This document shows, in pieces, positions 20,248 to 23,098 of a stretch of 23,356 nt of DNA (within the stretch, counting starts at the first letter, position 1; each line of letters begins with the position of its first letter). Location: positions 1 to 23,356 of IMG/VR virus record IMGVR_UViG_3300030390_000087; one strand, given 5' to 3'. This DNA is from a virus. The position numbers were made by a program, and so were the translations under genes. The notes under the pieces are model-generated. The model worked only from the letters and a program-made list of their open reading frames with translations, ran no database searches and was not told where the DNA came from.

Positions 20248-20584
20248 TTTGCGACCTCAAATATTTATACAGTTGATATGGCGTAAGAATAAACGGTTTA
20301 TTTATTCCTAACATTTGTTTTGTGTGGCCCACGCATGTATTAAGCATAAGCAAGCCCCGCGGCGACTTTTTTTGTATGCAACTCATAAGTCTATACGGTT
20401 TGTCAAGTATATCATTTTTATCGCTAACAGTGAACAGATCAAATTTACTTGTAGTTTTTTGAGATACTACATAGTTATAGCCTAATGGTTTTAACACAAA
20501 ACAATGCTGAATCTCTTTATGCAAGAATCTAGTCCACCAATGGTTGTCATCTTTATTAAATACTACATATATTTTAGAAGACAC
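20225..20584 (-). CDS. Possible permuted NlpC/P60-type (papain-like) cysteine peptidase
   Basis: A 119-residue protein. The segment HWWTRFLHKEIQHCFVLKP puts a histidine (H27) at the start of a strand. Later NTCVGHTKQMLGI puts C84 at the start of a helix, followed by FILTPYQLYKYL. His first, then Cys-x-x-x-x-x-x-x-LG, then a TPxxL motif is the order seen in circularly permuted NlpC/P60 (YiiX/LRAT-like) hydrolases. The match is by pattern only. The start is GTG, overlapping the large-terminase stop by 11 bases; AAGG lies nine bases upstream. If active it could cut peptidoglycan or a virion protein. An uncharacterised terminase-adjacent structural protein is the alternative. Confidence 0.7.
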   Translation of the reverse strand: MSSKIYVVFNKDDNHWWTRFLHKEIQHCFVLKPLGYNYVVSQKTTSKFDLFTVSDKNDILDKPYRLMSCIQKKSPRGLLMLNTCVGHTKQMLGINKPFILTPYQLYKYLRSQNETPKAT

Positions 20585-22034
20585 TAAAATTAGCCTTAAC
20601 TTGTATAGGTTTTGTAAAGTTACTAGATTGCCTAAGCGCCTGCCTTCCTTCGCCTTCGCCTTGCAGCCCGTACTCTAATCCTTCGACAAAGTGCGAGTAT
20701 TCGTTTTTGTCAGGTTTGTCTGCATATTTTTCCCCAGACACCTGTACTCTTTTATAGCAGAACCCACCTTGCAAGCCTTTCCGTACCATAGATGCTTTGG
20801 GTAACACGACAAATCTAGGTTTCCCGTCCATTGCCATTTCTTTCATTGGCGTTTCTAGTGCAAGCCTGCGCTTTAAAGGATCATTGCTTTGTGTTGGCTG
20901 GCAAGGAATGCCTGCGGCTCGTAGTATTTGGATAGCGGTATCGTCACTTGACTGAGTGCTATTGCCGCCAGACGGATCGCCCCACCCAACATATTTATGG
21001 TCAGGGTAATTAGATTCTAAATATCTTTTTAACTCAGGGGCAAACTCAACCGCACCTGAGTCGTTAATGCCAAACTCGTCAAAGCATACCCAACGACCAA
21101 TCGAGGTGCGTTGCATAAGCGCACACGCGGGGGTTCTTCCAAAGTCAAAACCAAGCACAATAGGATTATCTTTAGATGGTTTAAAATCCAAGTGCTGACA
21201 GTGTACAGAATCGGTATACATAGGATGGACAGGTTTGCCGTTTGACACGAATCCGTATTCATTTGCTAAGTTTACCTTTATCCAGTCGTCTGTTTTGCCG
21301 CTTAATCCGCGCTTATAGTAGTTGTCAGGAAGATTAATAAGATTTTCAGCGTCATCATTGATCTTCCATGAATCACCGTCTTTATACACGCCTCCTGCTT
21401 GTCGATAAAAGGCCCAGTCTTCAGGGCGCTCTATTTCCGCTAGTTTAAAATACCAGTGGTCTTCATCGGGGGCGTTAGAGTCTCCTAGCATGCCATGATG
21501 TGTGGGACGCACACCTTCCTTGTTAGACGGGTATCTACCATGACGTAGATCAAGCATGTCAAGGACAGCTTTAGAATGCTCCTTAGTCTCGTTTAGCCAC
21601 ACCCATGTAGTCTGTATACCTCTAGCTTTTTTAACGTGTTCAGGTCGATCAAAGGCAATAAAGATAACATCACACTCTACTCGCGTTCCATCGTCTAATC
21701 TAAAGCGTATAAAGTGTGTAGGGGGTTCTTTGTTACCTTGCTTAAAGTCTCCAAGTTCTCCGTGAATTTCTAGCCAGTCTTTAATGGTAGTAGAGAACAG
21801 TTCTGAGTAGGTGTTACGAGCCGCGATCACCCTTGATAGGCGTACACCATAGTTCTTGTGCGACTTGTCCTTGACGGGTTCCTGCTCGCACATAAGGTCA
21901 AATAGTTTAAGTATACATTGTACTGTCTTGCCAGAACCTAGCGGCCCCATGATAAACGAGTTTCTAGCGCGGCAATCAGTAAAATCTTGAAGGACTTGGC
22001 CTTGCGGCATTAGGTTGTATTCAATGTGGCTCAT
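20574..22034 (-). CDS. terL: Terminase large subunit (packaging ATPase and nuclease)
   Basis: With this start the protein has 486 residues. The ATPase domain has Walker A GPLGSGKT (30-37) and a Walker B-like WVWLNE (144-149) with the catalytic Glu. The RNase H-like nuclease domain has GFDFGRT (D297) and GWGDPSGG (D353), two of the acidic metal-binding residues. The start at 22034 overlaps the TGA of the preceding small gene as ATGA. A start four codons earlier (22046) is also possible. In T7 the terminase genes follow the tail fibre; here they precede the portal. The C-terminus overlaps the peptidase-like gene by 11 bases. Confidence 0.95.
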   Translation of the reverse strand: MSHIEYNLMPQGQVLQDFTDCRARNSFIMGPLGSGKTVQCILKLFDLMCEQEPVKDKSHKNYGVRLSRVIAARNTYSELFSTTIKDWLEIHGELGDFKQGNKEPPTHFIRFRLDDGTRVECDVIFIAFDRPEHVKKARGIQTTWVWLNETKEHSKAVLDMLDLRHGRYPSNKEGVRPTHHGMLGDSNAPDEDHWYFKLAEIERPEDWAFYRQAGGVYKDGDSWKINDDAENLINLPDNYYKRGLSGKTDDWIKVNLANEYGFVSNGKPVHPMYTDSVHCQHLDFKPSKDNPIVLGFDFGRTPACALMQRTSIGRWVCFDEFGINDSGAVEFAPELKRYLESNYPDHKYVGWGDPSGGNSTQSSDDTAIQILRAAGIPCQPTQSNDPLKRRLALETPMKEMAMDGKPRFVVLPKASMVRKGLQGGFCYKRVQVSGEKYADKPDKNEYSHFVEGLEYGLQGEGEGRQALRQSSNFTKPIQVKANFSVF

Positions 22035-22189
22035 TTTTTGCCCCATATCCTATCGTAGTTATCAGAGAATGCTTTTCTTGATTCGGCTGTAGACTTTCTA
22101 GCATGGCTGCCTTTGCCGCCATTAGATTCAGGAAAGTGTCTATTGCGGGTTTGTTTATCAAGTTTATGCAAGTGACCTTTCTTCTTCAT
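22031..22189 (-). CDS. Small basic protein encoded just before the large terminase
   Basis: A 52-residue protein, rich in Lys, Arg, His, Asn and Gly (MKKKGHLHKLDKQTRNRHFP at the N-terminus; KSTAESRKAFSDNYDRIWGK near the C-terminus). I do not recognise it. It overlaps the previous small gene by 26 bases in another frame, and its TGA overlaps the large-terminase ATG as ATGA. These tight junctions are the main support for it being real. The basic, compact sequence would suit DNA or RNA binding beside the packaging machinery, but this is inference. Confidence 0.6.
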   Translation of the reverse strand: MKKKGHLHKLDKQTRNRHFPESNGGKGSHARKSTAESRKAFSDNYDRIWGKK

Positions 22190-22322
22190 CTAATCCGTCC
22201 ATAAAGTCTGTTAGTTGGTAGATAAGCTCTCTCATAGCAACAGGGTCGCGATCAACAAAAGCGCAGATAAAGGCATCTACTATCTCTACCTCGATATCGT
22301 CAAGTTCGTAGTTTTCAAACAT
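22164..22322 (-). CDS. Small acidic helical protein
   Basis: A 52-residue, strongly acidic protein (MFENYELDDIEVEIVDAFIC, then a DRDPVAMRELIYQLTDFMDG region and LDEEERSLA). AAGGA lies six bases before this ATG. Another ATG two codons earlier is too close to that site. The 3' end overlaps the next, basic, 52-residue gene by 26 bases. The acidic/basic pairing of adjacent coupled genes hints at interacting partners, but no family was recognised. Confidence 0.6.
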   Translation of the reverse strand: MFENYELDDIEVEIVDAFICAFVDRDPVAMRELIYQLTDFMDGLDEEERSLA

Positions 22323-22332
22323 AATCATTCCT

Positions 22333-22446
22333 TTAAAGGTACATCATAGTACCAAGTGAAGCAGTAATCAAGTATAATAGAGGTGTATGTGGGCTAGAGG
22401 CTAGTGAACAATAAAACACTAGAGCCGTGGTTGACCCTCCAGACAT
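22333..22446 (-). CDS. Doubtful 37-residue hydrophobic open frame
   Basis: The frame starts MSGGSTTALVFYCSLASSPH and ends in a hydrophobic stretch (LLYLITASLGTMMYL) that could be one membrane segment. It ends 10 bases before the next small gene. A full AAGGAGG precedes the ATG, but only two bases separate them, which is too close for normal initiation. That ribosome site would also be paired in a local hairpin (22451-22479). The region may instead act as structured RNA. Confidence 0.25.
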   Translation of the reverse strand: MSGGSTTALVFYCSLASSPHTPLLYLITASLGTMMYL

Positions 22447-22569: not shown

Positions 22570-22583
22570 GTTACTACAACTTA
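22570..22583. repeat. Outlying copy of the TTACTACAACTTA element
   Basis: GTTACTACAACTTA repeats the right half of the array element at 22659-22718, about 90 bases away. It has the same orientation. Confidence 0.45.
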
Positions 22584-22658
22584 AAGAAAGTCTTATGTGT
22601 AGTTAATTACTTTACTCTAATCTGCGCTAACCCTTACGCTTACTGCTTCTTAGACTAA

Positions 22659-22718
22659 TTAATGTAGTTACTACAACTTACTTAATGTAGTTACTACCAC
22701 TTAATGTAGTTTGTTAAG
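22659..22718. repeat. Three direct repeats with an internal dyad (iteron-like)
   Basis: TTAATGTAGTT occurs at 22659, 22682 and 22701 (spacings 23 and 19). The first two copies continue with ACTAC(A/C)ACTTA, giving a near-palindrome TGTAGT-T-ACTACA in each. The third copy diverges (TGTTAAG). The array is 78 bases from the small-terminase stop. Regularly spaced dyads suggest a dimeric DNA-binding protein such as the small terminase, a replication initiator or a regulator. Confidence 0.65.
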
Positions 22719-22723
22719 ACCCC

Positions 22724-22745
22724 TTTTTTTTAACAATTTTTTTTT
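22724..22745. other. Two T-tracts (possible bent DNA)
   Basis: Eight T at 22724-22731 and nine T at 22737-22745, starting 13 bases apart, beside the repeat array. Tracts spaced near a helical turn can bend DNA, as known for some packaging sites. No GC-rich stem precedes them, so an intrinsic terminator is less likely. Confidence 0.4.
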
Positions 22746-22795
22746 GAGTGAGTGATATATATACACACATCACGACACTTCGGAAGGGGGGTGCC

Positions 22796-23098
22796 TCATT
22801 GCTCGGTGTCAATGTTACTGCTTCCGTCATACCTTTTACGCTGAATGGAAACGGTAAGGCCTTGGTCATCTGATGATACCTCTACTGCCTTGAGCTTAGG
22901 TTCAGTATAGTTAGCGATCTTATCCCATGCATCAATAGACGCCTTCAAGGTGAGTGCATCAGGTTCAGCGGTTGCCAGATTGTCCAGATCATTGGCTCTT
23001 TCAGCCATACGGATTATAGGATGGAACGATTCACCATACATTTCCTGTAACCTTTTAAGCAGGAACTTCTTGTTCTTACCTTGTCCTCTAGTATTCAT
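22796..23098 (-). CDS. terS: Terminase small subunit
   Basis: A 100-residue protein starting MNTRGQGKNKKFLLKRLQEM with a helical N-terminal half. It contains LKASIDAWDKIANYTEPKLKAVEV, a pattern common in phage small terminases (helices leading to a Y-x-x-PKLKAVE turn). It ends in a short beta segment (GLTVSIQRKRY) and an acidic tail. These proteins form a ring that recognises the packaging site and loads the large subunit. AGAGG lies 10 bases before the ATG. It is the first gene of the leftward operon and is separated from the large terminase by a repeat-rich region and two tiny genes. Confidence 0.75.
   Translation of the reverse strand: MNTRGQGKNKKFLLKRLQEMYGESFHPIIRMAERANDLDNLATAEPDALTLKASIDAWDKIANYTEPKLKAVEVSSDDQGLTVSIQRKRYDGSSNIDTEQ

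Follow-up and report, generated by a model that had tools for sequence, protein, structure and literature searches.

To our knowledge, the sites at which phages start to package their DNA have been established experimentally for only a few phages, and they are rarely recognisable from sequence. The small terminase of HK97 has a minimal site of 15 bp (+15 to +29, counted from the cos cut); TerS binding depends on a C:G pair at +21 and on the 9-bp A-tract next to this pair, and is abolished by GC pairs within the A-tract (PMC11331095). For the small terminase of SPP1, selection of bent DNA at pac has been proposed (PMC4737164). Here, we describe a conserved DNA element beside the presumed small terminase gene of an uncultured marine phage, which most likely represents a packaging site, with a new sequence. 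The DNA analysed (referred to as the window) is a linear virus record of 23,356 bases, for which a preliminary description had proposed a packaging site close to the terS stop codon, with a replication origin as the alternative.

Results

Terminase genes of the window

The late genes are encoded on the minus strand in the order terS, two small ORFs, TerL, portal, capsid, tail, and internal virion proteins (Table 1). TerL gives a weak match to TIGR01547, and its identity amounts to 79-85% in 27 of 29 records, i.e., those holding a TerL match. The label terS was given from the size of the gene and its place beside TerL only, and the product is therefore referred to as the presumed small terminase. 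It matches no family in PHROG, Pfam, or NCBIfam and no solved fold, and its structure model (mean pLDDT 75) likewise matched none of the solved structures; a viral protein in BFVD matched at 52% identity. A search of phage records for cultured relatives gave no match to TerS, and 80 relatives were retrieved from IMG/VR by TerS homology. The N-terminus of the protein is basic, with a net charge of +4 to +5 over the first 25 residues, and an N-terminal GRPxGS motif, which we take to resemble an AT-hook, is present in 17 of 56 TerS relatives. The gap between terS and TerL is a variable cargo spot, and three loci (L052, L059, and L061) carry an extra ORF (MTIEPFVYNCRLGRVIDGDTVVLSEI...) inserted there, whose product presumably resembles a staphylococcal-nuclease-type enzyme.

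Table 1. Coordinates of genes and sequence features in the window.
Feature	Position	Strand	Remarks
Presumed small terminase gene terS	22796..23098	-	100 aa; assigned by size and position; stop codon 22796-22798
Large terminase gene TerL	20574..22046	-	490 aa; 51.6% identical to BcepC6B TerL
Small ORF	22164..22328	-	54 aa
Conserved element	22735..22791	-	C6, TTCCGAAG, GC-rich spacer, TATATATA, 8-mer, C, A9, TT
C-run (G-run on +)	22786..22791	-	about 5-9 C in nearly all copies
TTCCGAAG block after C-run	22778..22785	-	starting at its second C, most columns carry 1.2-1.6 bits
GTATATATAT alternating tract	22755..22764	-	in nearly all copies; not in the L055 copy
C followed by A9 tract (T9 on +, 22737-22745)	22737..22746	-	C followed by eight or more A in all 115 aligned copies (built in for pattern-found copies)
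Second A8 tract (T8 on +)	22724..22731	-	window lineage; kept in sister contigs; A7 in L160/L151
Three TTAATGTAGTT repeats with GTAGT-N-ACTAC dyads	22659..22711	+	exact copies at 22659-22669, 22682-22692, 22701-22711
Outlying repeat copy GTTACTACAACTTA	22570-22583	+	
225-bp conserved segment	22346-22570	-	between repeats and small ORFs
Possible 37-codon ORF MSGGSTTALVFYCSLASSPHTPLLYLITASLGTMMYL	22333-22446	-	after AAGGAGG, within conserved segment

Repeats beside the terS stop codon

Read along the minus strand from the terS stop codon, the sequence runs GGCA-CCCCCC-TTCCGAAG-TGTCGTGATGTGTG-TATATATATC-ACTCACTC-AAAAAAAAA-TTGTT-AAAAAAAA-GGGG and then enters the repeat region, the simple repeats TATATATA and ACACAC being located at about 22754-22770. 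All features that had been listed for this region in the preliminary description, namely three dyad-bearing repeats, an outlying copy, two T-tracts, and simple repeats, were found to be present. The sequence itself shows the dyad GTAGT-T-ACTAC at 22664-22674 and 22687-22697, and no further exact copy of TTAATGTAGTT exists anywhere in the window. Three identical 11-mers within 60 bp were obtained in none of 200 whole-window Markov shuffles and none of 2000 local-segment shuffles, and the repeats of the window are not a product of chance.

The preliminary description had made its proposal dependent on conservation of the repeats in relatives with a similar small terminase, and this check turned out negative for the repeats themselves. 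Exact TTAATGTAGTT occurs three times in the window and only once or twice in each of six sister contigs (two copies of the looser core), and not at all in L160, L151, and L107. In an alignment with five of the sisters (L001, L002, L063, L141, and L157), the T-tract block is near-identical, the TTAATGTAGTT part varies in copy number, and GTAGTAAC of the outlying copy is missing from L001, L063, L141, and L157. With about two copies in the six sisters and none beyond this closest lineage, the TTAATGTAGTT repeats are ruled out as a conserved signal; they may serve as a lineage-specific operator or accessory site. The repeats and the block of T-tract and simple repeats are thus two separate things, of which only the block is widely conserved. 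The emphasis that had been placed on A/T-tracts was well founded, as it is the T-tract block at 22735-22791 that passes the conservation check.

A further conserved stretch of 225 bp follows on the other side of the repeats, with a mean column identity of 94% over two lineages that have strongly divergent terS genes (the window clade and L160/L151/L107). Its predicted stems (TGTATGTG/CACATACA, CCTTA/TAAGG, and CTAGTG/CACTAG) show changes mainly in the loops, and a structured RNA is possible; no match was found in Rfam, and the z-scores of the fold are only -0.4 to -2.4. The DNA of the possible 37-codon ORF is conserved beyond the need of the protein.

A conserved 57-base element

The element was first detected without a pattern, in loci fetched by TerS homology only. 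A pattern search of IMG/VR located it in at least 119 contigs, and two narrower patterns added a few extra copies. The consensus of 115 distinct aligned copies starts with C5-9, T, C/T, C, C, G, A, A, G, a GC-rich stretch, and a variable spacer, and continues with TATATATG, a pyrimidine-rich 8-mer, an invariant C, A9, and TT, at a fixed overall length of about 55 bp. Note that the C-run, TATATAT, and CA9TT formed part of the search patterns, so that the near-invariance of C-A9 in the 115 copies is built in for those found by pattern; it also holds in the copies found by TerS homology alone, which, like the TTCCGAAG block and the pyrimidine bias, are independent of the pattern. One copy (L055) does without TATATAT and still keeps C8-TTCCCGAAGGCGCG and CTC-A9-TTG at unchanged spacing, with TTCCGAAG retained. 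A structured RNA encoded by the element was ruled out, with no fold signal above shuffles (mean z -0.4) and no Rfam match.

Scored against the profile, the window contains one match of 54.9 bits at 22796-22727 on the minus strand, the next best reaching 1.6 bits. The same applies to all 12 long records, several of them genome-sized, in which a single strong copy of 26-69 bits contrasts with about 7 bits or less for the next. In one locus (L114, 5207-5387), the complete element is duplicated in tandem, the two copies lying 126 bp apart. Another record of 32,683 bases (G044, containing L217 and L218) has an exact end overlap of 127 bases, and so represents an apparently complete, circular genome of about 32.6 kb; it also encodes an ArdC-like anti-restriction protein. 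The pattern search of 84,980 bacterial and archaeal genomes returned four stretches from Clostridia with 7-9 bits against the profile, and on these chance-like matches a host or prophage origin of the element was ruled out. The element is not present in the terminase regions of BcepC6B, MEP301, Hodr, Ss1, VA-RY-3, and Y3.

Linkage to the terminase genes

In each of the 147 loci where TerL was matched, the gene lies downstream of the element and shares its strand. The same strand is used by terS in each of the 154 loci where terS was matched, at a distance of up to about 300 bp (upstream of the element in 98 and downstream in 56), some contigs being included twice in these counts under different locus numbers. 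The element takes one of three positions: behind terS, ahead of the small gene that precedes terS, or immediately ahead of terS itself. The element directly follows terS in the clades of L050-L054, L059, and L061 and lies upstream of it in the L004-L049 clade, where a counterpart of the 54-aa ORF, as judged by eye, is located between element and terS. In one genome (G012) the early block with HTH_36, ERF, and YqaJ is strand-reversed relative to the element when compared with the other genomes, and the terminase genes are not; the early block appears to be inverted, and the element therefore keeps its orientation with the terminase genes. One locus (L014) contains terS and 6 kb upstream of it and has no element, and the start of the neighbouring gene looks damaged as well.

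Divergence of the element tracks that of TerL more than that of TerS (partial Mantel values of 0.35 vs. 0.12), and the covariation of TerS and element is weak once TerL is allowed for. Since all bearers belong to one lineage with TerL proteins that are 79-85% identical, the linkage to terS must in part be ascribed to shared descent.

Placement close to genes could also indicate that the element controls transcription or translation of the late operon, e.g., as a phage-specific promoter or as a leader of the next gene. The median gaps amount to 8 bp from the upstream stop codon to the element and 11 bp from the element to the next ATG, the A9 tract often ending just 2-20 bp before that codon, and in the L004-L049 clade the element heads the terminase operon. 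Such a function is nevertheless considered unlikely, because there is one copy per genome where regulons usually have several, different genes follow in different lineages, the RNA structure does not exceed that of shuffled sequences, and no ribosome-binding consensus is seen in the element by eye.

Contig ends and recombination

Contig ends accumulate around the element: 44 of 140 upstream ends fall within 750 bp of it and eight downstream ends within 90 bp, compared with a mild rise only in a control anchored at the capsid gene (MCP). The left contigs extend beyond the A-tract by 10-90 bp, and the right ones start 18-75 bp ahead of it, without stacking at one base. As the overlap between left and right contigs corresponds to about one assembly k-mer, assembly breaks explain the enrichment equally well, and mapping genome ends from contig ends was rejected even though the enrichment is real. 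In three contigs only (L316, L309, and L100), the distance from the first base to the A9 tract is 18, 23, and 24 bases, which places these starts near the equivalent of the HK97 cut.

The ends are enriched on either flank of the element, in the manner of branch points in an assembly, and this also fits another alternative, namely a joint for module exchange, through which recombination would move terS and adjacent genes from strain to strain and which would be conserved for this use. A mosaic terS is indeed found in one sister contig (L063, 4371-4679), its N-terminus coming from another TerS group, and its C-terminus and the following element being of the window type. This explanation appears very improbable, however, as homologous exchange needs neither invariant spacing nor invariant bases across distant lineages, and no recombinase gene is seen adjacent to the element.

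DnaA boxes and replication origins

If the element acted as a replication origin, its A/T-rich part would unwind, and DnaA boxes, or the TTAATGTAGTT repeats as iterons in the window lineage, would load the host replisome. The core is indeed AT-rich, and 24 of 120 distinct loci contain perfect TTATCCACA DnaA boxes, 57 altogether, in the 300 bp that adjoin the element on its C-run side, compared with 0-0.04 per kb elsewhere, an arrangement of perfect boxes beside an AT-rich stretch that is shared with bacterial oriC and other DnaA-box origins. The clusters (TGTGGATAA) lie directly upstream of the element in L010, L026, L045, L106, L205, and L312, with the same orientation in the copies read. The phages also look lambda-like in replication and recombination, containing ERF, YqaJ, SSB, HTH_36, and NinB-like genes; repressor-like genes are present in element-bearing phages as well. 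On the other hand, 96 of the 120 loci contain no perfect DnaA box at this place, most genomes leave no room for iterons next to the element, and an origin need neither hold its orientation to TerL nor adjoin terS.

A further difference from DnaA-box origins is a separate iteron array in a replication gene. Iterons were detected inside the HTH_36 gene of G012, G036, G042, and G045, about 285-395 bases into the gene, as 3-4 copies spaced by 22-23 bp, and G002 contains an array of similar kind; with G002 included, the arrays comprise 3-5 copies, mostly spaced by 22-23 bp or double that distance. Shuffled controls give at most 2-3 copies. Scans with these iterons revealed no comparable cluster elsewhere, and none recur near the element. 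The lambda origin lies within gene O, and as the array in the HTH_36 gene matches this layout, the main replication origin is probably located there. The computed GC skew was not decisive. An origin at the element may then be a second one, following the precedent of SPP1 with oriL and oriR (PMC6316719), and an SPP1-like second origin sharing the iterons was ruled out, there being no shared ones. Because G012 combines the iteron array with DnaA boxes at the element (L026), either a DnaA-assisted second origin or a coupling of replication to packaging is still conceivable in that lineage. The origin alternative of the preliminary description is thus weakened by the lambda-type iterons in another gene and kept alive by the DnaA boxes of one lineage, and we regard it as rather unlikely overall, although it is the strongest competitor of the packaging reading.

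Discussion

A packaging site beside terS, as the preliminary description had proposed, is the best-supported reading of this locus, by virtue of the T-tract block instead of the TTAATGTAGTT repeats, which fail. From sequence comparison, we assign a probability of about 0.6 to the 57-bp element being the site at which the phages recognise their DNA and initiate packaging; such a site may be of either the cos or the headful pac type. The element is found as a single copy linked to terS, in a fixed orientation to TerL, with fixed internal spacing and deep conservation, and these observations support a packaging site.

We propose that the invariant C is read by the ring of the small terminase, which would also thread or bend the adjoining 9-bp A-tract, the basic N-terminal arm of TerS sitting in the narrow minor groove of the tract. 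TerS bound in this way would place the large terminase over the GC-rich half, consisting of the C-run, TTCCGAAG, and the following GC-rich bases, where it may make the first cut on replication concatemers. Packaging would then proceed from there through the late genes. TerS recognition, TerL cutting, and the direction of packaging are all inferred for this element.

The DnaA boxes beside the element in one lineage are not explained by packaging. It is conceivable that the element has a dual use, in which it would be the packaging signal of the whole family, and the lineage with DnaA boxes would couple replication initiation and terminase cutting at one locus; we consider such a combination distinctly unlikely. 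Boxes abutting the element in that lineage raise the question of replication-packaging coupling. Should the element be a packaging site, the start and the direction of packaging would become readable from metagenomic contigs for a whole uncultured group of marine podovirus-like phages, and the more than 100 aligned variants together with their small terminases would make the recognition code testable.

Comparison with known packaging sites

Like the element, P22 pac is compact, asymmetric, and tied to terS, a site of 22 bp in this case; it lies inside terS, whereas the element is located outside and switches between the sides of the gene (PMC9611059). SPP1 pac, composed of pacL, pacC, and pacR, has in common with the locus described here that bent or flexible A/T-rich DNA situated by the small terminase gene is, presumably in our case, the feature recognised (PMC4737164). 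It is larger and contains direct-repeat boxes, in contrast to a core of about 57 bp and repeats that are lineage-specific only; conserved repeat boxes of the SPP1 type were not found, TTAATGTAGTT being absent outside the closest lineage.

HK97 cos offers several points of comparison. The HK97 genome starts with GTTTGAATTTAACGCTAACCCGATTTTTTTAG, the region of the TerS site at that end reads CCCGATTTTTTTA, and a run of nine G is located about 45 bp before the right end, i.e., the cut. In both HK97 cos and the element, a C:G pair adjoins a 9-bp A/T-tract beside terS, and a homopolymeric G/C run is found no more than about 80 bp away from the tract (PMC11331095). They differ in that the A/T-tract and the G/C run are on the opposite strand relative to the element, and that there is no sequence homology, the best score of the element profile being -1.9 bits; the presumed TerS likewise gave no match to HK97 gp1 in PDB sequence or fold searches. 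As judged from these comparisons, the element is a member of neither the HK97 nor the SPP1 type by sequence, and on paper it would work in the same way as their sites.
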